Shown here: piece after piece, positions 1,657 through 42,545 of the stretch
How the letters are laid out: each line of letters begins with the position of its first letter
Position numbering within the stretch: position 1 is the first letter of the stretch
NCBI RefSeq assembly: GCF_026210795.1
Contig: NC_089430.1
Coordinates: forward strand, 310,001-374,000
Direction: 5' to 3'
DNA length: 64,000 nt
Origin: Rhizophagus irregularis
Lineage: Eukaryota; Glomeromycota; Glomeromycetes; Glomerales; Glomeraceae
Made by a program: the position numbers and the translations under genes
Notes under the pieces: model-generated
What the model was told of the DNA's origin: nothing
The model's database searches: none
What the model saw: only the letters and a program-made list of their open reading frames with translations

Positions 1657-3831
1657 TTAAGAGCTTACCATCGGAATTTCCAGTTCATCTTGTTCTTTTG
1701 AATGAAAGTTTGGATTATTATATACTTCGTCATCATCTGTAATAGATAAGTAATTAGAATTAAAATAGTATTAAAATTTATTATGTAAAATTTTCACCTA
1801 CCATCAACATATTTTTGAGTTTTTTCTTTTTCGTCATCTAAATTTTAAATAAAAGTCGTGTTTAATAAATTAAATTGATATATATAGTAACTTTATTTGT
1901 TAGTAATTTACTCACTATTTGATTTAATTTGCAACTTTTTAAATAATTTAGATAATTTTTTATTACTATCTAAAAATTAAAATATAAATTTAATATATAA
2001 ATCAATCTCGATTTGACAATAATTAAAATATATTACCTCTAAAAATAGTAATTACTTTTGATGATTTGCTACTATTCTGCTCATTTGATTTATTAAAGTC
2101 GTCAACTAAAAAAAAATTAATTAATCATTATATGAAAATTCAACGCTATAATGTTAATAAATACTTACTATTGTTAGGAATGTTAAAATCATACAATTTA
2201 CTATGAAACGCTATTAGTAGTAAAATAAAGTAAATTATTTTAGTATCCAAATAAAATGGTAGAATTATTATTTATACAGTTATACCTTCTTGTTCTTCTA
2301 TTATAATAAAAGACAACATTAATAATATATTTTAAAATAAATACATTCGCTAATAAAATATTATACACTTATTTATACCTTCTGTTGCATTTCTTGGTTC
2401 AGGTAGATTTCCAAAGTTGTGAATTTTACTTGTAAATAATCTGCTACTCGTATAATTTTCTTCTACTTTATTCATTTCTAAATTATCCATTTCTGATTTG
2501 AATAATTCATCTGACATATTTTGATAATATAAATTAATTTTTTGCATTTTTCTCCAAAGTGTATTATAATCAGGTCTTTTTAATGGATCAGCATCCCAAC
2601 ATTCTTTCATTAAATTTTTATATTCTAATGGAGTTTCTGGCACAATTTTTGGCCTTATACCGTTAATAATATTCATTACAATATCATTTTCATGTTCATA
2701 ATTTATAAATGGTGTTTGTCCAGATGAAATTTCCCACATAAGAATTGCAATACTATAAATATCAGATGCAAAAGTATATTCTCTTCCAACAATAACTTCG
2801 GGTGCTATGTAAGGAAGATTTCCATATATACTTGTTGAACATTTATCAGCAGGTCCACAAAATCCAAGATCACTAATACACCAATTATTATTTAATACAG
2901 AATATAATATATTTCCAGAATGTAAATCTCTATGCACTGCTTTCTCTTTATGAATATAATAAAGTGCAACAGTTATTTTATTAATAATATACATTCTATC
3001 TTTCCATGTAAGTTGATTATGATTTTGTTGTAAATATTTTCTTAAATCTATATCCATTTCCATCATTACAAGCATATAATTTCCATTTGATGGATTTTGC
3101 GTTAAACCAAAACATCGAACAACCTCCGCCCATTTATTACTTATATTTAAATGTGATTTAGCCTAAAAGACAATAATTTGTAAAAATACTAGTGCTAATA
3201 CAAAAATTACAACAATTTTATAAAATATAATTATACAAACCTCTTCAAACCAACTTTGATTTGCACTTTCAACATTTTCTAATTTTTTAAGCACTATAGC
3301 ACGATTTCCAAGTCTCGTTAATTGTTTTTTTTCAGAATCCCATTCATTGTATCGTCCATCAATCCAACCTGCTGTATAAATTTCAGAAAATCCACCTTTT
3401 GTTAAATATTTAATATTTTCTAAATTACTATATGGGATCCATTCAACAATCATAAACGGATTAAGTGATTCCATTTGACATTTCTGTATTAAATTATCAA
3501 TATCATCATTTCCAGATGTCCAATTTGAAAAATCTTCTTTTAAATAATTTCGAACACAATATTCACAATATAATGTGGCTAAACATTCTTGCTTACAATT
3601 TTCACAAACTCTTTTTGTACCATCATTATACATAACTTTATTTCGATCATAACTTTTAGTCATCCATCTTATTGCATAAGTTTTTTCATCATTTGTAAGA
3701 ATTTTATCAGCAAGGACTGTTTGTTTTTCAAATTCAAATTGTTTGTGTATATCATTGTAAATATTAGTATCTAATAATGATGTTGCTCTATGAATTGTTG
3801 CATAAATTAATTCATATCGAAGAGTGGACAT
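1657..3831 (-). CDS. TKL-like protein kinase, 8 exons, about 555 aa
   Basis: Exons on the minus strand: 3831-3241, 3162-2379, 2297-2286, 2210-2169, 2105-2037, 1969-1916, 1837-1802, 1736-1657. All junctions are AG/GT and the lengths sum to 556 codons including TAA. The first intron is phase 0; the other six are phase 1. The ATG at 3831 (MSTLRYEL) is chosen because the upstream in-frame ATG adds only a low-complexity stretch. A Cys-rich segment (CENCKQEC, YCEYC) precedes the kinase domain. Kinase motifs: GGFSEIY loop, IVLKKLE lysine, catalytic HRDLHSGN, SDLG in place of DFG, YIAPE, DIYSIAILMWE. Catalytic residues look intact, so an active serine/threonine or tyrosine-like kinase is expected; substrate unknown. 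The C-terminal tail is a chain of small in-phase exons, one only 12 nt, each removable without changing frame. It belongs to the family expanded in Rhizophagus. Confidence 0.9.
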
Positions 3832-3942
3832 AATGTAATCAATAAGAAAGAAAGAATGAATGAATTTAAGTTCATTCACTTGATAAATTAGTAAAGTTGT
3901 TGATCAAAATTTCATGTTGTCCCACATAAATTTTGTGACCTT

Positions 3943-12718: not shown

Positions 12719-13814
12719 TTAGAAATTGTGATAAAATGGTGAATTTAAATACGCTTCTATACATTCTGATTCACTGTCAGGTTCAGTGCACAATTTTATT
12801 TCATATTCTATGATCCGATCGAGTTCAAGTTGAGCATATGACATGAATTCTTTCTTGAAAGTATCTGGAAGTTTCCATCGACTACATAGCTTCTTAAGTG
12901 ATTTATGTGATCCAGAAACGGCAACGTTATATCCTTTGATTTCTTGTACATATCTGATGTACAATTCACATAAATAACAGCATTTTTTTGAAACTGCTAT
13001 AAAAATCCTTTTCTCTTCATGATTCATTACGCTGGTCAATAAGTTCAATTCCGCGTGTAAATACATTTCATTAGAACTTACACAATTCAGTTCTGCATCT
13101 ACGCCGCCATACACACGTTTTAGTCTATACCTTATCGTAGGATCTTTCAAACATTCTTCCATGAAACCTTCATATTCTTTTTCATGATCAAGAAATTTTT
13201 CGACAATACCATTCCATGGTAATATGGGTTGAATCACCACATCAGGATTCAATAATTTCAAATCTATACGAAAAAATAAGTCTTTGTACTTTGTATTACG
13301 TACGCAATTTACGATATTAAATAAAGATTCAATGTATGATCCCACCTTTCTGGTGTGGTTTCGAAATTTTTTCGGGATTTCAAAATCTTTTTTTACTATT
13401 TTATAATATTTGCAACAAACTGAGGATATAGTGTATTTTCCTTATTGTTCAATACGTCAACTTTGTCAAATATGTCAACATCGTTGATTTTAGTCTTAGC
13501 ATAATCTAAGAAAGATTTAGTATATACTTTGTCTTTATACTCGGTTATATCCCACCTAAGTTTGTTCAATGTACTGTAGTTAAAATTAAATCTCTCATAT
13601 CCTCCCTATCTCTCGCTAGTATTGTTGCTAGATTATAAGAAAATTTGTTCACTCCCGACAGATTAATTTCTTTTTCACGTTTTTTCTCGACGGCACCTTT
13701 AAAAATTCTAGCAACACACAGTTTACTATAAAATTCATTCTCTTCTGCTATTGCCATTGCTTGCGTGTTTTTTCTTTTTATTAAACTGCTTTTTATAAGA
13801 AAATGTTGCGTCAT
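12719..13814 (-). pseudogene. OTT_1508-like nucleic acid deaminase, two frameshifts
   Basis: The 3' part (13345-12719) is one clean frame of about 208 codons with MYLHAELNLL (zinc-binding H plus catalytic E) followed by SKKCCYLCELY (the two zinc cysteines), the C-terminal core of the OTT_1508-like fungal deaminase family. Coding character continues upstream without ATG (KVGSYIESL, IPKKFRNHT), shifts frame near 13430 to DVDIFDKVDVLNNKEN, and shifts again near 13575 to the 82-codon frame that starts at 13814. No splice sites would explain the shifts, so single-base indels are the simplest reading. Catalytic residues themselves are intact, meaning loss is recent or the assembly has errors. Members of this family are implicated in nucleic-acid editing or conflict systems; the substrate here is unknown. 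Confidence 0.65.
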
Positions 13815-18950: not shown

Positions 18951-21900
18951 TCAAATTTCATTTATATCAAACTCATATTCTTTTGTAATATATTCTAAAG
19001 AAAAAAAAACAAAGTAATTAATAAATTCCTTTACGTACTGATTAAAAAATAACTTAATACCTTTATTGTTGATTGATTCTTCAATTAGTTTATTATCTAA
19101 GATAATAATAATTATTAAATGTTAAAATGTTGTAAATATTGTCCAAATTTATAAAAAAAATAATTTTTACATACTTGGTTTCGTATTAAACGTTATTGAT
19201 CTGCTTGTATAAATTGCTTTTGGATGAGGTTTTTCATTAAAATCTGGTCCAAGCATTTTTGATTTTATTAATTCTAATCTTATTTCTTCAGCTTGATTAA
19301 AATATTCGGCATCCATTCCCATATTTGACCAAGAATTAAAAATTTTACAAACATCCGCTGCTGAAGGTCTTTTTTCAGGATTAGGATTCCAACATTTTTT
19401 CATTAAATTAGCAAAATCTTCAGGAGTGTCGTCAGTAATATTAGGTCGTTTCCCATCAATAATTTTATAAATTAAATCAACATCATGTTCAATATTATCA
19501 AAAGGTTTACAACCAGTTGTCAATTCCCACATAATCATGCCCATACAATAAATATCAGATGATTTAGAAAATTTGACACCTTTAAATATTTCTGGTGCAA
19601 TATAATAAGGTATTACTCCATATATACTGCTATCATGTGGAATGTCATTTGCGGGCTGTGATAATCCTAAATCTCCAATTAGATATTGATCTATTTTACA
19701 TGAATCATTTTCAATTATTTCAACCAATATGTTTCCGCTATGAAAATCTCGATGTATAAAATCTTTTTCATGAATAGTTTGAAGTCTAAAATAAAAAATT
19801 GGTGATTAATAAAATTATACTTAAATAATTTTAAAATCATTACTAAATAAATTATAAAAACCCATCTGAAATTCGCCACAAAATGTGCAATTTTTTCTTC
19901 CATGTAATCTCTGCAAAATTTTCTTGTAAATAATTATGTAAATCTCCTCCATTTGCAAATTTCATTATAAACATATATTCTTTTGTTATAGGATCTTTTG
20001 TGATACCATGACATTTAATAATATATTCAAATTTACTATCATAACATTGATAAAGTGATTTTAACTAAAATTTTATCGTTTAAATTAGTATTAAATATTT
20101 TAAAAAAAAACAAATTTTGAAAATTAATTACCTCATTTAAAAAATATTTGTTTGGTTCTTGAGAATTTAAAACTTTTTTTAGAGCAACAACGTCTCCTTT
20201 AATTAAAGCTTTATAAATAATGCCAAATCCTCCTGCTGCCATTTTTATTAAACTTTTAATTTGTGAATATGAAACCCATTTTATTTCATTTTGAGAAATT
20301 AGATATTTTTGATCCAAAAATCCTTGAGAATCTTTTAGAATTTCATTTAATTCTTCACTGGTAAAATCGAGTAAATGACTTGTATAGCATGCTTTTGGAT
20401 GAGATTTTACAATAAGATTATTATACTCAATTGGTGCATTTATAAATTCCATAATATTGCTTTTTAATTCTTCATTAATATCTTCAATTTTTTTATTATC
20501 AGGAAGAAAAATCCAATTTTCAATGATATTTAAAATTTCTTTAGAAGATGGTCTTTTTAATGGATCTTCATCCCAGCATTTTTCCATTAAATCTATATAA
20601 CATTGTGGAGTATTTTCAATAATTTCAGGACGTCCACCTATACAAATACCTGAAGCAAGTTGAAGATCATGTGCTTTATCATTAAATGGTGGAATTTCAG
20701 ATGTAAATTCCCACATAATTATAGAAAAACTATATATATCACTAGCTTGAGTATAAGATTGACCTCTTAAAATTTCGGGTGCTATAAATGGTAAAACTCC
20801 ATAAATAGCATTTTCTTTTAAAAAAGATTTTGCAAGTTGATATAATCCTAAATAATCACTAATAAAAATTCCGTATATGTCTTCTTCAAATTTGTTACAT
20901 AAAATATTACCATTATGAAAGTTATGATGAATAAGATCTTTTTCATGAATATCATTAAGACCCTTAATAATCTGATATAAATTAAATAATTTTTGTTTCC
21001 AATTTTTTGTTATTTCTGTTAAACATCTTTTTAAACTACCCTTATTTGTATACTCTATTATTAATACATAATTCAAAGTATCTGGATCTTTTGTAAATCC
21101 ATATACTCTAATCATTCTACGTGAATTAATAATTTTCCACTATAAAAAAAATAATATTTAATTAATTAATATAAACAAATTATAATATTAAAAAAAATAA
21201 TAATATCTAAACATACTTCATTTAAAAATTCATTTAAACTTCCATCTGAATTATTAAGATAATCAAAATATTTAAAAATTACTTCGATACTATTATATCT
21301 AGCTTTATATATAGTACCAAATCCTCCTTTATCAAGATATTCAATATTTTCAAATTTATTATAAGGAACCCATTTTAAGTTATTTTTAGAAATAAATTGA
21401 TCCACAATTTCACTTCCACTAGTACCAAATCTTTAAATATAAAAATGAAATTATATTAAAAATTTAAATCTAAAATAAAATTTACAATTAAAAATTTAAA
21501 TATTAAATAATATTAATTATAACTTACTCTAAATAAAATTATAAGATTTAATATAATGAATAATTAGTTTTAAATAAATAGTATATAATAACTTAGTATA
21601 ACTTACCAACTAAAATAATTATCAAAATATTTAAAAAAATTTAATTATTATGAGTAAATATTATATAATTATAATAAATTAAATATAAAAAATATAATTA
21701 AAATAATACAATACTTACAGGCTAAAATATTTTAAATAATTTTTTAAATAATTTTTTAGTTTGAATTATACATAATATTATGTAAATATAATATAATTAC
21801 TTACAGGCTAAAATATTTTAAATGATTTTTTTAAATAAAAAATTTAATTAGTTTAAATTACATGTAAATATTATATAAATATAATAGAATTATATAAATA

Positions 21901-24600
21901 ACTTATAACTTACCAACTAAAAGAAATTACAAAATAATTATTTAATAAAGAATTTAGTTAGTTTAAATTATATGTAAATATTATATAAATATAATAGAAT
22001 TACTTACAAGCTAAAATATTTGAATAATTTTTTAAATAAAGAATTTAGTTAGTTTAAATTATATGTAAATATTATATAAATATAGAATTACTTACGTTCT
22101 TGAATAATTTTTTAATAAAGAATTTAGTTAGTGTAAATATTATATAAATATAATAGAATTAGATAAATAACTTATAACTTACCAGCTAAAAAAATTGCAA
22201 AACAATTGTTTAAATAATAATTTAGTTAAATTATATGAAAATATTATATAAATAACTTATAACTTACCAACTAAAAGAAATTACAAAATAATTATTTAAT
22301 AAAGAATTTAGTTAGTTTAAATTATATGTAAATATTATATAAATATAATAGAATTACTTACAGGCTAAAATATTTTAAATGATTTTTTAATAAAGAATTT
22401 AGTTAGTTTAAATTATATGTAAATATTATATAATACATAATAGAATTACTTACGATCTAAAATATTTGAATAATTTTTTAAATAAAGAATTTATTTAGTT
22501 TAAATTATATATAAATATTATATAAATATAGTAGAATTAAATAAACAACTTATAACTTACCAACTAAAAAAATTACAAAATAATTATTTAAATGAAAAAT
22601 TTAGTTTAAATTATATAAATATTATATAAATACAATAGAATTAAATAAATAACATACTACTCCCTATATAATTTTTTAAATAAAGAATTTAGTTAATTTA
22701 AATAATAAATAAATATTATATAAATACAATAGAATTAAATAAAATAACATACTCCCTATATTATTAAATAAATAATTTTCAAATAAAGAATTTAGTTAAT
22801 TTAAATTATATGTAAACATTATATAAATACAATAGAATTAAATAAATAACATACTCCCTATATAATTTTTTAAATAAGGAATTTAGTTAGTTTAAATTAT
22901 ATTTAAATATTATATAAATATAATAGAATTACTTACTATCTTAAATATTTGAATAATTTTTTAAATAAAGAATTTAGTTAGTTTATATGCAAATATTATA
23001 TAAATATATTAGAATTAAATAAGTAACTTATAACCTACCAACTAATAGAAATTACAATATAATTATTTAAATAAAGAATTTAGTTTAAATTATAATATTA
23101 TATACAGTAAATACAATAGAATTAAATAAATAACATACTCTCTATATAATTTTTTAAATAAAGAATTTAGTTAGTTTAAATTTATGAAAATATTATATAA
23201 ACATAATAGAATTACTTACGATCTAAATATTTGAATATTTTTTAAAAAAAGAATTATATATAAATATTATATAAATATAATAGAATATAAATAACTTATA
23301 ACTTACCAACTAAAAGAAATTACAAAATAATTATTTAATAAAAAATTTAATTAGTTTAAATCATATGTAAATATTATATAAATATAATAGAATTACTTAC
23401 AAGCTAAAATATTTTAAATGATTTTTTAATAAAGAATTTAGTTAGTTTAAATTATATGTAAATATTATATAAATATAATAGAATTATATAAATAACTTAT
23501 AACTTACCAACTAAAAGAAATTACAAAATAATTATTTAATAAAGAATTTAGTTAGTTTAAATTATATGTAAATATTATATAAAACATAATAGAATTACTT
23601 ACGATCTAAAATATTTGAATAATTTTTTAAATAAAGAATTTATTTAGTTTAAATCATATGTAAATACTATATAAATATAATAGAATTACTTACTACCTAA
23701 AATATTTGAATAATTTTTTAAATAAAGAATTCAGTTAGTTTAAATTATATTTAAATATTATATAAATACAATAGAATTGAATAAATAACATACTCCCTAT
23801 ATAATTTTTTAAATAAAGAATTTAATTAGTTTAAATTATATATAAATATTATATAATATAATAGAATTACTTACGATCTAAAATATTTGAATATTTTTTA
23901 TATAAAGAATTTAGTTAGTTTAAATTATATGTATATATTATATAAAATAATAGATTAAGTAAATAACTTACACCCTGTAGCATTATAAATTAATTTATAA
24001 AGTAAAGTAATTATAATCAATTAGATAAAAATATTATAATTATTGTATATAAAAATTAAGTATATACAGTAACTTACAATCTAATTATTCAAATAAATAT
24101 TATTAGTCTAAATTATATATAAATACTTTTAAATTAATATATAATTAAATACTTACTTTCTATAATATTAGTACCATAATTATTAAACAATTATATTAAT
24201 GGAAGATTTAGTTATTTAAAATATCATGTAAAATGCAATAAAAAATATAGTCATTAACTTACCAACTATAATAATAATAAAATAAATTATTTGGTTATAT
24301 AAAATAATAATAGAAGTAAGTAATTTAATTATCATTCCGATTATAAGATAACCTATTACTTACGAGCTAATATAGTAAATAATTTTTAGAAATAGTTTAA
24401 AATATTTAAATTACATGTTTATAATTTACAAGCTGTTAAATAATTTTCTTACTTTTATCTTTCTTAAATTTTGAAACTAGTTTCATTATGTTGCAAATTT
24501 GGTTTGAAAAAAATTTTAGAGCAATCTCAATTTGTATTAGATACCTATATTCATATTATATGCTTTTACCTTCATTGTTACTTTGAGTACTTTGAGCCAT
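18951..24600 (-). CDS. Tandem pseudokinase-kinase with microexon-encoded N-terminus, about 746 aa
   Basis: Large exons on the minus strand: 24600-24570, [32 microexons between 24432 and 21528], 21430-21217, 21139-20132, 20064-19862, 19785-19175, 19096-19061, 18994-18951. The start is MAQSTQSNNE. Counting the microexons the total is 747 codons including TGA with no internal stop. Domain 1 (about residues 70-330) has GGFGTIY and VIFKYF, but its catalytic loop is HHNFHNGN instead of HRD..N and its metal motif is SDYLG, so it should be inactive. Domain 2 (about 385-700) has AAGGFGIIY, VALKKV, HRDFHSGN, GDLG and YIAPE and should be active. The end of domain 1 and the start of domain 2 lie in one uninterrupted exon, so the fusion is secure. 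The arrangement resembles JAK-type pseudokinase control by convergence. Both domains are of the TKL-like family of the kinase at 1657-3831. The microexon part is read from splice signals and needs transcripts. Confidence 0.85.
21431..24569 (-). repeat. Array of homologous short introns separated by 3-nt (one 1-nt) microexons
   Basis: On the minus strand 32 intron-like units (63-109 bases apart) each carry a GTAAGT, GTATGT or similar donor, usually an AAACTAACTAAATTCTTT branch-like block, and a TTTTAG, ATATAG or AAG acceptor. Between each AG and the next GT lie three nucleotides, at plus-strand positions starting 21607, 21719, 21805, 21914, 22008, 22096, 22183, 22268, 22362, 22454, 22561, 22658 (or 22661), 22753, 22855, 22937, 23039, 23139, 23220, 23307, 23401, 23508, 23603, 23694, 23794, 23875, 23972, 24078, 24157, 24263, 24364, 24430; the last, at 21528, is one nucleotide. 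At 22658-22663 the gap can be read as three or six. Triplets: TTG eight times, ATC four, GGA four, CCT three, CTT three, and nine singletons. The intron bodies are clearly homologous, as expected for tandem intron duplication or introner-like spread. Confidence 0.8.
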
Positions 24601-24711: not shown

Positions 24712-25961
24712 GAGCTCCGCACGGGTAAGGGTCAATTCGGGTGACCCGTTGGGTTGACCCGAAATATTCAGGTCAGGTTGTCAAATTCGTGACCCGGTAT
24801 CAGGTCGGGTTACTTGACCCGACCCAATTGACCTGTTAACCCGAATACTTTAGCTCAAAAAAAATGTTTATACTCTGAAACGGCGGTTTTTCATGTTACC
24901 TTATGAAAAAAACGCCATTTCGGCATTGTTTTTTATAAACAAATACGCCGAAATGGCGTTTTTCATTTTATTTTATGGAAAAATGCCATTTCGGCATTTT
25001 TTTCACTTTTATGAAAAAAATCGCCAAAATGGCGTTTTTTCATATTATTTTATGGAAAAATGCCGTTTCGGCATTTTTTTCACTTCTTTTATGAAAAAAA
25101 TGCCGGTTTGGCATTTTTTTTTCACTTCTTTTATGAAAAAAAATCGCCAAAACGGCGTTTTTTCATATTATTTTATGGAAAAATGCCGGTTTGGCATTTT
25201 TTTTCACTTCTTTTATGAAAAAAATCGCCAAAGCGGCTTTTTTCATATTATTTAATGGAAAAATGCTGAAACGGCATTTTTTCCCCACTTCTTTATGAAA
25301 AAAATCGCCAAAATGGCGTTTTTTCATATTATTTAATGGAAAAATGCCGAAACGGCATTTTTTCCCACTTCTTTTATGAAAAAAATCGCCAAAGCGGCAT
25401 TTTTTCATATTATTTAATGGAAAAATGCTGAAACAGCATTTTTTTTCCACTTCTTTTATGAAAAAAATCGCCAAAACGGCATTTTTCCATATTATTTAAT
25501 GGAAAAATGCCGAAATGGCATTTTTTTCACTTCTTTTATGAAAACATCGCCAAAGTGGCATTTTTTCATTTATCTTATGGAAAAATGCCGTTTTGGCATT
25601 TTTTTTTCACTTCTTTTATGAAAAAAATCGCCAAAACGGCGTTTTTTCATATTATTTTATGTAAAATGCCAAAACGGCATTTTTTTTTCACTTCTTTTAT
25701 GAAAAAAATCGCCAAAGCGGCATTTTTTCATATTATTTAATGGAAAAATGCTGAAACAGCATTTTTTTCCACTTCTTTTATGAAAAAAATCGCCAAAATG
25801 GCATTTTTTCATATTATTTTATAGAAAAATGACCTGAATACTTTCAGGTCAGACGGGTCAGGTCGGGTCAGAGCAGGTTACCCGACCTGACCTGACCTGA
25901 TAAAAATTTTTCGGTTCAGGTCAGACAAATTACCTGACCCGACCCGACCCGTGCGGAGCTC
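24712..25961. mobile_element. GAGCTCCG inverted-repeat element, copy 2, TA target duplication
   Basis: Flanked by TA at 24710-24711 and 25962-25963. Both ends read GAGCTCCGCACGGGT inward, followed by GGGTC/GACCC and AGGTC/GACCT pentamer runs. Removing the element restores a CCTATGTATACCTATGTATG-like site. The interior differs completely from copy 1: it is a hairpin array built on AATGCCGNAANCGGCATT. No transposase frame exists; translated frames through the array are by-products. Confidence 0.8.
24880..25830. repeat. Hairpin satellite, period about 80 bp, two palindromes per unit
   Basis: About a dozen units alternate two short palindromes, AAATGCCGAAACGGCATTTT and ATCGCCAAAACGGCGTTTT, separated by CACTTCTTTTATGAAAA and CATATTATTTAATGG spacers. 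Substitutions in one arm are often matched in the other (for example GCCGTTTCGGC, GCCAAAACGGC, GCTGAAACAGC), which keeps or nearly keeps the stems. Confidence 0.85.
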
Positions 25962-26305
25962 TACCTATGTATGTAGGGTATGCAAAATTTCACACGCGTT
26001 CCATACAGATCTACATTGTTTATTACCAAATAAGGAAAGGCCTAGACCATTCTATTCTGTACCACGTATGGTCACGTGATACCTTTATATGTGATGTTTA
26101 ACCATACCCTACATACATAGCCAACCATACAGAAAAAAAAAACTCTTTCCCCTTTTTTTAGTTTTGTCAGTTTTCCGCAGTAATTTTGCGAAGTTTAGTT
26201 TTTTTTAGTTTCTATTTGAAACGCCAAAGGGTGAGAGGTCTAAACGGGCGCCTCTGTCTTATACGAGGTTTTTAGTTCTTCTTATATCCTATATTATAAA
26301 GGAAT

Positions 26306-28792
26306 ATGTCTTCTACACCTTCTATCGAAATAGACTGGTCTTCCACTTCACAACGTTCTTATGTTCAACTCGGTGACTTTACACCACCTGATAATAACTC
26401 AGCAGATATATTATATAATACTGAGCGACCAGCATTACTTTCTGCTAAGGATATTCTTTCTCTTGATATCGATGATATTTATCCTTATACGTATTCAACT
26501 CTTCATTTTGAAGACAACAAAACGGAATATATATATGACGACGAAGTCTACTTTCAACAGCTATTACAGGCTAATTTAAACGCTGAAATAGAAGTAATCA
26601 GCGTACTCAAAAATGACAAACCTTTTGTTGACGACACTCCTTTAACTCCCATACAGGAGATTAATCCTATGCCACCTTTGGATACTGCGCCTCTCTCAGA
26701 TAATTTACCCATAGTCGAGAACATTAATCCTATACCACCTTTGGATACTGTGCCTCTCTTAGAAAATTTACCCATAGTCGAGAATATTAATCCTATACCA
26801 CCTTTGGATACTGCGCCTCTTTCAGAAAATTTACCCATAGTCGAGAACATTAATCCTATACCACCTTTGGATACTGCGCCTCCCTCAGAAAAATTACCCA
26901 TCGTTGGGAAAAAAAATACTTTGCTGGTCTCCCTGAAAAAATTTCACGTGACTACGCCAAAACGATCTGGATATAACAAGATCTACGAAATTCGGCGCTC
27001 TAGGAGTTTCTTTTTTGAGCTTGCTGATCATAATCAAAACACCAATGAAATTCATTTGAAGATACACACAAATGATTATCATATGAAAACTAAACCGATT
27101 AGTTATAATAACACAAGTTCGTTCCCCAATGACAAATATCAAATCAGCTGCATACTTACGCATTTTTTCACCTCACAAAGAGTCATTCCACGTCGAATAC
27201 AAGACAAATATTTTAATTTCTTACGTAACAAATTATTGGATAGAATTAAAATAATAAGATCACGTGTTACTAGTACTTCTAATCGAAATTATTCTACAAA
27301 AACATTTTTTAATTTCACCTATAAGAAACGTCGTTTTCACTTTGGCATTTATATTCCTTGCCCCTATATTAATAATCGTGAACATTTTCATAATGACACA
27401 CCATGTAGTATCCCTACTCCTTTCGTCATGTCGCACAATAGACGCTCATGCGTTATGCATCAACATACCTTCTCACAATTACATTGTTTTAAAAATATTA
27501 AAAAGAAACATGAATCCAAATCGGATGATATTCCTACAGATTTCTTTAATGACAAATCATCTCATGCCAATTTATTATATTACAGATGGCTTAATGGTAA
27601 ATCAAAACGTATTACCTCTAGACGACTGGGTATTTTGTATAACAGCAATATTCATGCTAGAGATCCCTCTACAACTTTCAATAAAGGCAAAAGACACATG
27701 TATCGAAAATGTCTCGCCAAATTCGAACACAGTTGGTCTCCTAATTTACGTACACAAAAACAACAAGATATACGTTTCAAGCGCTCTTGCCGTCGTGTTT
27801 TTAATAAAATGCGTCTACCGCCTAATCATAAGGTCACTAACCAGGACTATTTAGCGACTGCACGCAGACATCATTTTCTATTCATGAAATCTCAAAAGAT
27901 TAAAGCTCCTATTCGACACTTATCATACAAACAATGTGATTCAATCCCGAACGCTAACGATTATTTGTTCTTGGTTCCTTACTTCGCTACGGATTTTAAC
28001 CACAAGCAACAAATCATGACGAAACTCACTCAAGCTTCATCATCTACTGGTCCTTCTGCACCACCAGAGAATTACAATCCAATTTCGGATGTATTCATAC
28101 CTAAAAAATATCATGATATTATACCAAAGGATCCGATTTTTGTGAACGATCGTTATGTGGTTCCTGGATCTAGAGAATGGTTCACTTATATGTATAACGT
28201 TGATGAATCTTATTATCCATCAGAGAGTAGTACCTCACGTTACAACGCTAAAGGGAAATATATAGCAAGAACTCCAATATACCGTTCAGGAGTAGTAGAA
28301 AATTACGTACCATCATATATAGTAGAAAAATCTCAATTACGAAGAATGGAAAAATTAAAAGAGGACGCTTTAACGAAAGAGGCAGCATACCATGGAACTA
28401 CCTTCAAGCATTATAATGCTCGTGTTAATACTATTAAATCCTTAACAGATGCATCATTTCATTTTCACGAACGCACACCTAGTTATTTGGCCAGAAGACT
28501 AGAAAATCACAATTCGGGTTTTAGTAATACCACGTTAGATAAAAATCATAACAAGGGTCTCAAGAAAAATAATCTCCGAACTCAAGGGGCTATCCGATTT
28601 CCTACGCATCATTATATTGATGTATCAGATGATACAGCAGAGGTCGAATATCGGCCCAACAAGCGTGATAATATTAATAACGAGAATCATTATTTCTCAT
28701 TTCAGGATCATAACATGAAAAGACTACGTCCTTCACCAGATATTACCAATGACTCCCTGGTACCAGGACCTTCAAGTTCTAAGACAGTTTAA
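26306..28792 (+). CDS. ORF1-like or unknown 828-aa protein of the retroposed element
   Basis: A single exon from ATG at 26306 (MSSTPSIEIDW) to TAA. Residues 1-118 are acidic. Residues about 119-200 hold four tandem 21-residue repeats around NPIPPLDTAPLSENLPIVE. Residues about 205-560 are strongly basic, rich in R, K and H (KKRHFHF-type runs, SKRITSRRLG), as expected for nucleic-acid binding. The C-terminal third contains YNPISDVFIPKKYHDIIPKD and GSREWFTYMYNVDESYY. No zinc knuckle, RRM, endonuclease or RT motif is visible. Codon use is less AT-biased than in the neighbouring kinases. I recall similar proteins being abundant in Rhizophagus, but no function is known. An RNA-binding ORF1 role is inference from the charge pattern and its place in a retroposed unit. 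Confidence 0.7.
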   Translation: MSSTPSIEIDWSSTSQRSYVQLGDFTPPDNNSADILYNTERPALLSAKDILSLDIDDIYPYTYSTLHFEDNKTEYIYDDEVYFQQLLQANLNAEIEVISVLKNDKPFVDDTPLTPIQEINPMPPLDTAPLSDNLPIVENINPIPPLDTVPLLENLPIVENINPIPPLDTAPLSENLPIVENINPIPPLDTAPPSEKLPIVGKKNTLLVSLKKFHVTTPKRSGYNKIYEIRRSRSFFFELADHNQNTNEIHLKIHTNDYHMKTKPISYNNTSSFPNDKYQISCILTHFFTSQRVIPRRIQDKYFNFLRNKLLDRIKIIRSRVTSTSNRNYSTKTFFNFTYKKRRFHFGIYIPCPYINNREHFHNDTPCSIPTPFVMSHNRRSCVMHQHTFSQLHCFKNIKKKHESKSDDIPTDFFNDKSSHANLLYYRWLNGKSKRITSRRLGILYNSNIHARDPSTTFNKGKRHMYRKCLAKFEHSWSPNLRTQKQQDIRFKRSCRRVFNKMRLPPNHKVTNQDYLATARRHHFLFMKSQKIKAPIRHLSYKQCDSIPNANDYLFLVPYFATDFNHKQQIMTKLTQASSSTGPSAPPENYNPISDVFIPKKYHDIIPKDPIFVNDRYVVPGSREWFTYMYNVDESYYPSESSTSRYNAKGKYIARTPIYRSGVVENYVPSYIVEKSQLRRMEKLKEDALTKEAAYHGTTFKHYNARVNTIKSLTDASFHFHERTPSYLARRLENHNSGFSNTTLDKNHNKGLKKNNLRTQGAIRFPTHHYIDVSDDTAEVEYRPNKRDNINNENHYFSFQDHNMKRLRPSPDITNDSLVPGPSSSKTV
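26650..26903 (+). repeat. Four in-frame 63-bp coding repeats
   Basis: Near-identical units around ATTAATCCTATACCACCTTT encode a 21-residue proline-rich repeat. The unit length is a multiple of three and differences are mostly silent or conservative, so the array has expanded within a coding frame. Confidence 0.9.
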
Positions 28793-37499: not shown

Positions 37500-38945
37500 G
37501 TAAAAAAATATGATGATAAATTTTCTAAATGGTGCAAATCATGTCAAATGATTAATTTAAAAGAAAATTGGACTAATTATACTTAATTATAGTAGCGGAA
37601 ATGATGAAATTGACGATTTAATTCTGCTAAAGATGATTATTCTACAATATATTCAGCAATATGGAAGGGGTAATCCATTATATTATGATTTAAATGAAAA
37701 TATACATAAAAGGAGTCAAGTTAATAAGAAAGTCAATTTAAAATGTTTATAAAATTCACGTGAAATTGCCTATGAATTTTTAGATAATATATATAAATTA
37801 TTTATTTTCTAAACTTATTAAAAAGCGGGACAATAATTTTTTATTTGATTTTTATAGGTTAAATCATATTATTCAATTGATAAACAATGTTTACTTAAAA
37901 TATTATGGCCAGTTACAAAAAATTATATTGTGATTAATTGTGAAAAATATGGTAAACGATATACAAATTTAAGGAATAATTGGTGTAACCATGTCAAATA
38001 AATTTAAGGAAAAATTGCAATATAAGTGGAAATGAAAAATTGATAATTTGATTCAAGAGATACAATTAGAAACTAATTATTATTGTGACATAATAATTGA
38101 ATGGATACCATATGATCATTAAAGAAATAGGTAAAGGTGGGTTTTCTACAGTATGTGTACGTAAAAGGATCATAGTCTGAATACAAAAGATTTTATTATG
38201 CAAAGGTGGAGATTTTATAACTGGTTAACTAAAAACTATATTGAATTTAATTGGCATTCCAAAATAAAATTTTTACTAGATCTTGTTAAAGGCCTTACCG
38301 CCTTGATATTATTCATCAAAAAACAAATGGTTCATCATGATTTTCATATAGGATATATATTAGCAAAAATTACTGATTTAGAATCAGAAATTGAGTTTAC
38401 TTATTTCAGATATAAGGTTATGTAGAAAAGCTGATAATTTGGATAAAACAAAATTTTATGGAGTTATGCCTTATGTAACTCCTGAAATGTTAAGAGGAAA
38501 TCCTTACACTCAAGCTGCGGATATATATAATTTTGCTATTGTTTTGCCTGAAAAACAACCTTTTGGCAATTACACACATGATGAATATCTAGCACTAGAC
38601 ATATATCACGGAATTAGACCTGAAATAAATGAGCAAGAAGCGCCAAAATGTTACATTAACTTGATGAATAAGTGTTGGAATTCAAATCCAGATAATAAAC
38701 CAAATGTTATTGAATTAAAAGAATCATTTAATCTATTCAGAGATTCAACTGATAATTATCATATGGAAATGCGTTTGAGAGATGATGAAACAATTCAAAG
38801 AAGCAGAGGAAAATAGAAAACAAATCTATCATTTATTGAAAACATCAAGTCATCTACTCATCCACAAGCTATTTATACATCTTGGTTACTTAATCCTTTA
38901 TGGATAATCTTCCAAGATACAACAATGATGAGAGCAAATGTCTAA
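37500..38945 (+). pseudogene. TKL-like kinase relic 2
   Basis: Fragments in family order: YDDKFSKWCKSCQMINLKEN (Cys motif), a second similar Cys-motif block near 37930-37990, FDSRD/IQEIQLETNYYCDIIIEWI near 38050-38108, IKEIGKGGFSTV (glycine loop) near 38128, LDLVKGLTALILF, MVHHDFHIGYIL (HRD altered to HHD, N altered to Y), LISDIRLCRKAD, YGVMPYVTPEMLRG, ADIYNFAIV followed by a deletion, CWNSNPDNKPN, and HPQAIYTS-like tail debris near 38860. At least three frameshifts and an internal deletion of the helix-F region. Two N-terminal modules suggest an old tandem duplication. Confidence 0.7.
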
Positions 38946-39757: not shown

Positions 39758-42545
39758 ATGGTCAAATATCAAGGTTATTCTGGTGAGTCTTGCAAATAGC
39801 ACTTTAACACAGTAAAAAATTTTTCAGCTTATAACTGAGATTTTAATTCTAGCGCTCATCTCTTATTTGAGAAGTCAAGCAAAATGGTCATTTCGTGGAT
39901 TCCTGGTTCTTTATCGTGAAGTTATTGTTTCCTCATCCTTCTTCAAAAGACTGGCGTGAACTGAACAAAACCTGGGTTGACCGATTCTTAGGAGCTGCAA
40001 AAAAGTTATCAGATAAAAAAATTTTTGCAGATTTAACAGAAAAGGTGCGTTTCTTATATTGCAATGGAAGGGTAACTCCTAGTTTACGCTTATTTTGAGT
40101 TACCAGAGTTTTGCTCAGAAGAATAATTGTATTTTGAATTACTGGCGTTTTGCTAGGAGAATTACTGTATTTGACAGCTTGGTAACCACTCCAAGTCCTC
40201 AATATGGGCGCCCTAACTTTGTTGTTAATAAAGATCTATTGATTCTGGATGAGGAATCAATTACTCTTTCCTTTATTATTACTAGATAAAAAATTGCACT
40301 GCTAAAATTATTACTTTCACAACAGGTAAAATCAGAAAGTAAAGGGCATCGGTTAAAGCCATATTGGAAGGGAGTGATCACAGAGAATAAGACGGTAAGT
40401 AATATATAAAATTTTTTGCATAACTTACTAGACTAAACCTACTTACTATTATAGGAATTCAAAAAGAGGAAACAAGAAAATAAAGAAAACATTGGTAATA
40501 AATTTAGTCAATACAACATATATTTTCTTTTTTTGTCTTTATTGTTAATATCCCAAATCTTAATTATATCACTAATTTAGATTCTGAGGGAAGAAGAAAA
40601 TCTACGAAAAGATGTAAGAATGTATAATATAATATTTTTATTATTAAGGTCTCTGGCAGTACCCATTCTTACAATATTTAATAGTACCATATCCTAGTAT
40701 CAGAAGTTGGGCAACCAACGGAATTATCAGTCCAGATCAAAGAGATAAGTACTACTACGCAGATCCAGCTAAAACAAATACAGAATTGCTGAATTCCATA
40801 TTAGAGGGCAAGTTTGTGGCACTTCACGGCCCACGGTCATCCGGTAAAACAACACGAGTGTATCGAATTATGCAGCAGTTGACGGAGCATCATGACTGTT
40901 GCTGTTTCTAGTAAATATTCTCTCAATAATTAATAACGTACAACTGTTGACATATGCTGATTGTTTTCTTTCTACAGCTTCACCCTGCAAAATGTCAATA
41001 TGGACACTAATGAAAAATGCTTCTGGCTTGATATAGGGAGAAGCCTACAAATATGTAATGATTCTTTTTTTAACCGTTTAGATACTATCGAGTCTGGAAG
41101 CGATTTTGCTGTTGCATTCAATGAGTGGAAGTCTGTTGTTATCTTCATAGACGAGTTTGACAGATTGTACGGCACAATTGACAAGGTTCATGATGAATTC
41201 CTTGGTTGCTTCCGTACCATTAAACATGCCATGAGCATGAATGTGAATTATCCTATCCTTTCAGTAATCATTGTTGGTACTTTTGGAATCCTTGAGCTGA
41301 ATTCAAGTAATACTTATGATTCACCATTTAATGTTCGGGACCCTTTTCAGAATCCTAATTTATCCGAAGAGCAGGTGCAAAGACTTTTTGAAGAATTTGG
41401 ATCGGAACATAAACTTAATGTGGAATCTAAAGTCATTGAAGACATATACTTGCAGACAAACGGGTATGTTTCATAGAGCAATTTTAAATAATTAAAATCT
41501 TATAAATCATCCTATGTTTTATTTTAATAGGCATGCTAGTATGGTATGTCTTTGCGGAAATTTAATTGAAAAGATTAAATTACCAGATAATGATGATAAT
41601 TTTAGTTTCGCATCCTGGAAAAATTTGTTATTCACGTCATTGAATAAAAACATTTATGGTTATGTTGTCTTTGAGAGGATGTTAACAGATCTGCTTAAAG
41701 AGGAATCAAGGCCTACTGTAGACCTTTTACGATTGCAATTTTTGCCAAACTTAGGTCCAGTGACCATCACAAGATCCAAAGATTTGATCCATGCACATAA
41801 CCTTGTCAGACAAGGAATTTTGATAGTTGTAGAGGATCAAATCAACACTTTCATGGTGGCCTCGCCACTTATACGTTCTGTGATTTTACGTTATGTACTG
41901 CCTGATATCTTCAAGTTTTGTCCATCAACAGAAATACCAAAACGCACAGATCACAACATAGATATGCTTAGAGCTCTAAGTGATGCCGTTCGTGTTTTTG
42001 ATAAAGAAAACATAGAATTGGCAGCTTTGCATTCGTATAAAACAGCACAAGTGCCTGTTGGGGGATGTTCTAATGTATTGGTTCCTCGAGAAAGTGTATA
42101 CCAACAGCAGCTTGCTGGCACTTTCACAAATTGGATATCATCAATAGGGTTCGAAGTTATGAGTCAATACCATATTATAAAAAGAAAAAAACACTCTTAT
42201 AGTGACTTGGTGATAACGGCACCTTCAAGTTGGCCTGGAAAACCAACAGTAATACTTGAACTCCTTGCAACTTCAACTCAAAAGGAATTGGATGAACATT
42301 TTGAACGAACTCTGAAATATTCCCAATTACTTAAGAGGAGTCTCTGTATTCGTGACATTTGGACGGTACATTTCACATGCGAAGATGAACCAAACCATCA
42401 TTGGCCAACTAAAGAACAGCGAAAAAAAGGGTTGAATGCTATAATGTTTTGGCATAATCGTGATTTCACAAGTGTTTATATGAGTGCTTGTTATAACGAT
42501 GAAAATGGCAATATGATAGATATTACAAAGGAATATATTATGTGA
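39758..42545 (+). CDS. Crinkler (CRN)-type P-loop NTPase with PD-(D/E)XK-like C-terminus
   Basis: Exons: 39758-39782 (MVKYQGYS), 39853-40044, 40326-40394, 40455-40494, 40581-40613, 40649-40910, 40978-41463, 41531-42545. From 40326 on, all phases agree. Walker A is GPRSSGKTT (near 40834), Walker B VVIFIDEFD (near 41137-41163). The last 130 residues carry SDLVITAP and TVILELLAT, the D..E layout of a restriction-endonuclease-like fold, although the usual lysine after E is replaced. CRN proteins pair such NTPase and nuclease domains and include secreted or nuclear-targeted host effectors in oomycetes and AM fungi. In exon 2 a one-base shift is needed near 39910-39925 between WSFRGFLVLYRE and PHPSSKDWRELNKTW, so either the 5' end is damaged or the start lies elsewhere. 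The 35-base intron 40614-40648 is unusually short. No header domain or signal peptide is evident. Confidence 0.75.

Follow-up and report, generated by a model that had tools for sequence, protein, structure and literature searches.

The window examined here, a 64,000-nt stretch of the Rhizophagus irregularis genome (contig NC_089430.1, positions 310,001 to 374,000; G000:C2:310001-374000 in the genome scanned, which comprises 146.7 Mb in 32 contigs), carries a tandem-kinase gene on its minus strand, and in the 5' half of this gene the N-terminal segment is probably encoded by a chain of 3-nt exons. Exon 1 of this gene (24570..24600; all coordinates of the gene refer to the minus strand) is 31 nt long, encodes MAQSTQSNNE plus one nucleotide (phase 1) and ends at a GTAAAA donor; its MAQS... 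start has no evident hydrophobic stretch by eye. It is followed by 32 exon-like units spanning 24432-21528, of which 30 have 3 nt, one has 6 nt and one has a single nucleotide. These are microexons 1 (CTT, 24430..24432, donor GTAAAT), 2 (CTC, 24364..24366), 3 (TTG, 24263..24265), 4 (AAA, 24157..24159), 5 (ATT, 24078..24080), 6 (GGT, 23972..23974), 7 (ATC, 23875..23877), 8 (GGA, 23794..23796), 9 (GTA, 23694..23696), 10 (ATC, 23603..23605), 11 (TTG, 23508..23510), 12 (CTT, 23401..23403), 13 (TTG, 23307..23309), 14 (ATC, 23220..23222), 15 (AGA, 23139..23141), 16 (TTG, 23039..23041), 17 (ATA, 22937..22939), 18 (GGA, 22855..22857), 19 (GGA, 22753..22755), 20 (GGAGTA, 22658..22663), 21 (TTG, 22561..22563), 22 (ATC, 22454..22456), 23 (CCT, 22362..22364), 24 (TTG, 22268..22270), 25 (CTG, 22183..22185), 26 (AAC, 22096..22098), 27 (CTT, 22008..22010), 28 (TTG, 21914..21916), 29 (CCT, 21805..21807), 30 (CCT, 21719..21721), 31 (TTG, 21607..21609) and 32, a single A between AG and GTAAGT (21528..21528). 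Directly after the intron of this 1-nt unit, the first kinase exon begins at 21430 with (A)TTTGGT... and contains the start of the first kinase domain (21217..21430). The next exon (20132..21139) completes kinase 1 and contains the beginning of kinase 2, including a second AGGFG...LKK lobe, and the remaining kinase 2 (19167..20064) consists of an exon from 20064, whose end is not fixed, and an open frame at 19805-19167 with a kinase match. Pfam kinase matches fall on both parts of the downstream gene, giving the two kinase domains of a tandem kinase, and both would be joined in one transcript. The HRD position of kinase 1 reads HHN by eye and is thus pseudokinase-like.

The 31 introns between the microexons are 63-109 nt long, their lengths modulo 3 are mixed (16, 8 and 7), and CTAA, CTGA or TTAAC lies 12-60 nt from the 3' end in 28 of them. 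The A+T content is 89% in these introns versus 60% in the 3-nt exons, and the array as a whole is a tandem repeat with units of about 91 and about 464 bp. Joining exon 1, the 31 microexons and the 1-nt exon places 128 nt (phase 2) ahead of the kinase exon, with the frame open into the kinase; the joined reading of the gene is MAQSTQSNNEASLENWYRSNLAFDQIDRRRSIDPFAEPFASFE-FGTSGSEIVDQF, so that the predicted chained product reads MAQSTQSNNEASLENW...SFE-FGTSG. A direct splice between exon 1 and the kinase exon breaks the frame and creates a stop. Most of this layout had been claimed in a first-pass annotation made from the letters of the window. Its array of successive triplet units could be located unit by unit, a recount of the microexons gave the same 14 different triplets, the drift of intron length at constant exon length covers the range that it had named, and its conserved branch block corresponds to the motifs given above. 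The joined frame in phase 2 and the out-of-frame direct join were likewise reproduced, and the unit that it had left as three or six nucleotides is microexon 20, which has 6 nt, or 3 nt (GGA) with a much weaker donor. Its description of the array as encoding about one codon per intron holds for the length of each exon and fails for the reading, as each residue in phase 1 straddles two microexons. A candidate 10-nt exon in intron 1, AAAGATAAAG, was dropped because it broke the phase and left an intron of about 20 nt.

The length of exon 1 is 1 mod 3 and the kinase exon needs phase 2; therefore, the triplets would be read in phase 1, in which the last base of one triplet joins the first two of the next and a stop arises where a T precedes AA, AG or GA. 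The junctions were analysed in 34 arrays, comprising 21 arrays of a first set (20 fetched loci, L039-L058, and the window) and those of 13 diverged loci, with ragged arrays included and a large array on contig C22 kept apart. A phase-1 stop was present at 1 of 845 adjacent junctions (ATT-AGA in L056), compared with 31/767, 44/700, 33/641, 31/589, 28/542 and 28/498 (4-6%) when triplets were paired at lags 2-7, and phase 2 gave 140 stops at the same 845 adjacent junctions. The Fisher P of lag 1 versus the higher lags (1.2e-16) is not corrected for shared ancestry and is too small because the units are duplicated. The higher lags share this dependence, however, and show no depletion in the first set. 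Within-array shuffling of triplets in the 21 first-set arrays predicted 32.7 adjacent stops (sd 4.5, lowest of 500 shuffles 20), and 1 was observed among 714 junctions, whereas lags 2, 3 and 4 gave 31, 43 and 31 stops versus 31.1, 29.2 and 27.4 expected. Counting only distinct pair types within 18 arrays left 1 stop in 467 versus 27.5 expected. Two held-out samples behaved in the same way: the 13 diverged loci had 0 of 131 adjacent stops with 5.15 expected (0.4% of shuffles were as low), and the C22 array had 0 of 119 with 3.75 expected, a result that is weak alone, some shuffles also giving 0. Since stops are avoided at adjacent, phase-1 junctions, selection would see neighbouring triplets joined in phase 1, which shows, on genomic evidence, that they are read together and that each residue is split between two microexons. 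The selection on reading frame that the first-pass annotation had proposed is thereby seen as a near absence of phase-1 stops among adjacent triplets only. These data also bear on the possibility that the microexons are spliced with variable inclusion, a subset being used per cell or isolate and protein diversity arising by alternative splicing, as skipped sets of 3-nt exons keep the frame. Such a mechanism would be compatible with the window gene, in which 18 of 496 contiguous microexon skips create a stop, and with the diverged loci, which by themselves are also stop-poor at lag 2 (0/108, 4.26 expected), but it is unlikely, given that stops at lags 2-4 of the first set are not below the shuffle expectation while lag 1 has 1 versus 32.7. 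Avoidance restricted to adjacent pairs therefore indicates that full inclusion is what selection mainly sees.

The layout is not confined to the window, and at least 424 genomic places match a 330-nt piece of the array. For the calling of splice sites, the exon length was left free, at 1-9 nt in the first set and 1-6 nt in the 13 diverged loci; because strict 3-nt sites had served to train the scoring, a count of the spacing between GTAAGT and AG is the fairer check. The same layout was found in 17 of the 20 fetched loci, in one 11-kb locus on C22 and in the 13 diverged kinase loci. The last of these came from a protein search that gave 30 loci among the matches listed, namely the 13 diverged loci, 14 first-set genes, the C22 gene, L032 and L033; the supposition that kinases outside the first set are array-free proved wrong, as the 13 diverged loci carry arrays. 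In the 18 well-formed arrays (17 fetched loci and the window; L049, L051 and L058, which are ragged or short, are excluded), 692 of the 716 called exons have 3 nt, while 17 consist of a single nucleotide and 7 have some other length, which by sequence places the genes among micro-exon genes in the broad sense (a coding segment built mostly of internal exons that fall far short of 51 nt, mainly in multiples of 3), and the 667 introns shorter than 130 nt have a mean length of 92 nt (sd 9). The 13 diverged loci, which have 41-74% of their 12-mers in common with the first set, contain 156 exons of 3 nt together with 14 single-nucleotide exons and three 6-nt exons. In these loci the nearest upstream AG lies exactly 3 nt from GTAAGT in 128 of 143 cases versus 3 of 29 elsewhere in the window; it lies at 1 nt in 8 more, in 7 of them since the triplet itself starts with AG, and at 0 nt, the spacing of a recursive splicing site, in 2. 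Random triplet spacing in relatives, which the first-pass annotation had named as an outcome contrary to its proposal, was thus looked for, and the 692 and 156 exons of exactly 3 nt were found instead.

Exon 1 was found in 16 of the 21 first-set loci (window included) and in the C22 gene, with a length of 1 mod 3 in 17 of 17; the first-set search did not find it in L042, L045, L050, L051 and L058. The microexon CTT with its GTAAAT donor, followed by CTC, recurs in eight first-set loci (L043, L044, L045, L047, L052, L053, L054 and L055), and most arrays encode an ASLENW-like start and a (P/S/T/A)FE-FG end. Among well-formed arrays with exon 1 found, the number of triplets ranges from 23 (L041) to 121. 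The upper value belongs to the C22 array (L060+L059, two pieces, C22:2757300-2770300), the largest read, which extends over more than 11 kb, is dominated by AAC and TTG and encodes an LEQ-rich sequence, ...ELEQLEQQLEQQQLEQQ..., that is coiled-coil-like by eye. As separate observations, L057 (281-2600, oriented) lacks the first intron of other array genes between exon 1 and the motif GAAGATAAAG and has 2247 nt with short repeats between microexons 1 and 2, a possible case of intron loss or gain and of insertion. Kinase matches reach upstream of the kinase exon at C2:647595-647804, C24:1869231-1869401 and C9:519616-519780 (query residues 16, 30 and 32), and the last of these loci (L028) carries an array.

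The triplets are far more variable than the sequence around them. Where two units from the 18 arrays show no more than one difference across 84 flanking nt, their triplets differ at 0.31 per site (0.16 within arrays and 0.36 between arrays), whereas control 3-nt windows in the flanks have a mean of 0.026 and a maximum of 0.086, with 0 of 82 reaching the exon value, the pairs not being independent. Base composition at the third triplet position, where the next codon begins, is almost even (A 230, C 234, G 235 and T 234 of 933); this evenness stands beside the 89% A+T of the window introns and is partly due to the small number of unit classes. The array could alternatively be an untranslated minisatellite of about 90 bp within one long intron with splice-like ends, the real transcript running from exon 1 through the A to the kinase exon or starting inside the kinase exon. 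The tandem units of about 91 and 464 bp, the fact that exon 1, the 1-nt exon and the kinase exon are in frame without the triplets, and the NCBI models P0002-P0010, which begin at MDQF inside the first kinase exon, would all accord with this. Neutral repeats, however, would not avoid stops solely at adjacent phase-1 junctions and would not hold exactly 3 nt in diverged arrays, and the roughly tenfold excess of variability in triplets over intron flanks also stands against a minisatellite, which is accordingly judged improbable. From the genomic letters, it is highly probable that the 3-nt exons form a chain that is spliced constitutively and encodes a hypervariable segment at the N-terminus of an expanded family of kinases. 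The chain of microexons put forward in the first-pass annotation is in this respect supported, and it is widened to a layout common to many kinase genes, with codons split between microexons and hypervariable triplets.

The 1-nt exon that closes the array recurs in other loci. In 28 of the 30 protein-search loci, AG/A/GTAAGT precedes the kinase exon by about 80-100 nt, and AG/T/GTAAGT takes its place in L036. A TTG microexon followed by a 65-95-nt intron and the 1-nt A exon occurs 122 times genome-wide versus 0 for the reversed pattern, and the same pattern with a 2-nt exon in place of the 1-nt exon gave 0 occurrences genome-wide. For the first 100 of these 122 places, placement against at least 162 kinase exons among the matches listed put 85 within 330 nt upstream of a same-strand kinase exon, and 15 not. 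Furthermore, AGAGTAAGT-(75-105)-AGATTTGG has 31 genomic occurrences versus 2 for the reversed control.

Besides the stop-poor lag 2 of the diverged loci, the in-frame path that links exon 1 and the kinase exon by the 1-nt exon alone, and the MDQF starts, several observations weigh against a translated chain. A complete join between exon 1 and the kinase exon was obtained for only 10 of the 21 first-set arrays, and 8 of these are open. The frame is closed in 4 of the 21: L049 is ragged, L052 has TTT+A+A at the kinase junction, where a stop is formed with the 1-nt exon, L056 has the ATT-AGA junction, and L039 stops only with 7- and 9-nt exons added by the free-length caller and is otherwise open. 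Among the 30 loci checked, L032 yielded no 1-nt exon, and in L033 the 1-nt exon stands with no array within 1.4 kb. If the arrays had spread by segmental duplication of dead kinase genes, broken arrays such as L049, L052 and L056 and the lack of an HRD motif in kinase 1 of the window (by eye) would be natural, yet 17 of the 21 first-set frames have no stop as far as they can be joined, and the 13 diverged loci have no adjacent phase-1 stop; these require continuing selection, and decay is the least credible of the explanations considered. The gene models also weigh against a translated chain. When NCBI protein models were compared with the array peptides as a group rather than paired to individual arrays, a phase-1 N-terminus (ASLENW or the window array peptide) was present in 0 of the 45 proteins found; P0001, P0012, P0025, P0026, P0028 and P0029 are partial and run from the start of the kinase exon, and P0013, P0015, P0016, P0043 and P0045 begin with MALNND or MAQSND and continue into ordinary-looking other sequence. 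A search of the genome for the array peptide as one exon, run without a positive control, gave 0 candidates. The R. irregularis genome paper reports 2,533 kinases and Nanopore reads mapped with minimap2, and the word 'microexon' is absent from its main text (PMC10234402).

One further model, P0014, a partial R. irregularis protein, adds to these contrary points. It is 96% identical to a kinase exon on contig C14 from residue 77 on. Its N-terminus had no match among the best 150 matches listed, all of them to kinase exons, by which an exon match could be crowded out, and a search for other gene models with a similar N-terminus found only P0014 itself. Its ...NNGVGGRRHL resembles the phase-0 reading of the array before the C14 kinase exon (L061, C14:3084400-3085650), which hints that P0014 joins array triplets in another phase, with intron sequence retained after exon 1. 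Each exon of the array might accordingly supply one whole codon, read in phase 0 by means of another start or donor. The P0014 sequence ...NNGVGGRRHLGK-FGKSG can be set beside N S G V G G H G G H L in the C14 array, of which one GGC (donor GTAATT) was added by eye, and in-frame stop triplets are nearly absent, with 1 TAA (in the ragged L049) among 933. That TAA is also the only triplet starting with TA, the non-stop TAC and TAT being absent too, which fits a splicing constraint: TA-start triplets may be avoided because AG+TAxGT would put a donor over the acceptor. A phase-0 reading is very improbable, because phase 1 is required by the exon 1 lengths and by the kinase exon and is the only phase in which junction stops are avoided, and because P0014 seems by eye to need the retained intron sequence.

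A possible mechanism for the production of the N-terminal segment is therefore framed on a spliced chain in phase 1. Each triplet is flanked by introns of 63-109 nt in which the donor is strong and GTAAGT-like, the branch region is of the CTAA type and the acceptor is AG, and intron definition together with the strong donors could remove each short intron conventionally. The introns would probably be removed one after another, each triplet joining the growing upstream exon, because two spliceosomal complexes hardly fit on both sides of 3 nt at once. The product would be exon 1, 31 microexons, the 1-nt exon and the kinase exon in one open frame, and splicing errors would mostly be tolerated because skipping any microexon except the 1-nt one keeps the frame. 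The arrays may have grown by tandem duplication of units of one 3-nt exon and one intron, the gain or loss of a unit adding or removing one residue without a frame shift. Diversifying selection on the triplets and homogenisation of the introns could then yield a fast-evolving N-terminus on a kinase. A fast-changing N-terminus on a tandem kinase suggests, as a guess, a role in recognition or in the choice of partner. More specifically, and tentatively, a diversification of codon cassettes can be envisaged, in which about a hundred or more kinase genes carry a hypervariable recognition segment that changes by gain and loss of units, the introns being kept alike for recombination and the triplets driven to diversity, in the service of partner, self/non-self or symbiont recognition; this extension is possible but doubtful. 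If the chain is real, the spliceosome would be reliable in chaining exons too small for exon definition, sequential models of intron definition could be directly tested, proteins could evolve residue by residue through the copying of introns, and current annotations of the kinase family would miss the true N-termini because read aligners and gene finders struggle with such exons. To our knowledge, no more extreme splitting of a coding region, with tens to more than 100 consecutive 3-nt exons per gene in many genes, has been described.

Recursive splicing (ratchet) sites are points in a long intronic stretch at which acceptor and donor nearly touch, so that no exon is left (AG/GT). In contrast, each site of the array leaves 3 nt that are under coding constraint. 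The open-licence literature on microexons in Rhizophagus and fungi and on 1- and 3-nt exons showed no chains of 3-nt exons among the matches listed; a Trichoderma paper states that functional microexons are undescribed in filamentous fungi (PMC11121469), and a 1-nt exon is described in Fusarium (PMC12940212). The systems nearest in kind appear to be the micro-exon genes (MEGs) of schistosomes and the megacycle genes of aphids. According to the portions consulted of one account, MEGs of Schistosoma mansoni resemble the arrays in having mostly very short exons that are mostly multiples of 3, in being hard to annotate and in their link to protein variability, and they have 10-20 exons of 6-81 bp (3-81 in the abstract), mostly 15 bp, introns that range from about 100 bp to 5 kb, and products that are secreted (PMC10526429). 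The present genes fall outside that definition, as their exons are nearly all exactly 3 nt, up to 121 of them are consecutive, and the introns, of about 90 nt (mean 92 nt), lie in tandem-repeat units before a kinase. Aphid bicycle and megacycle genes likewise have many small exons of one phase, and a megacycle gene has more than 100 microexons; about 2000 residues in 100-odd exons amount, by our arithmetic, to tens of nucleotides per exon (PMC9168663). The bicycle family consists of putative plant-gall effectors, and tandem-repeat units with homogenised introns, a feature of the arrays, are not described for megacycle genes in the sections seen (PMC9168663). Drosophila homothorax has an alternatively spliced 3-bp exon (PMC7392893), which is a single microexon and no chain. 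Exons of 1 nt comparable with the terminal A are described, in the excerpts available, for Arabidopsis APC11, plant VPS55 and Fusarium CYP621A, and that of CYP621A is needed for the frame, as is the terminal A here (PMC4674806, PMC12940212, PMC8831610). As described there, these 1-nt exons are isolated in single genes and their orthologues, whereas the present one closes an array of 3-nt exons and is common to many paralogues.

The window contains further features outside the array gene. Two more kinase-like genes or fragments lie at 2350-3903 (minus strand) and 38165-38816 (plus strand), with Pfam kinase matches in 2350-3162 and 38382-38816. Open frames at 40648-42545 (plus strand) include a P-loop-like GPRSSGKTT motif by eye and gave no Pfam match in the two pieces scanned (40961-41476 lay outside the scan), and an 830-aa open frame without a Pfam match at 26300-28792 (plus strand) contains a 63-bp in-frame repeat at 26660-26901. 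An open frame at 12719-13441 (minus strand) carries an OTT_1508-like deaminase domain (PF14441, E 1.7e-13). A long tandem repeat of 77-81 bp units with short hairpin-like GCCG...CGGC cores occupies 24878-25831, about 280 nt upstream of exon 1.

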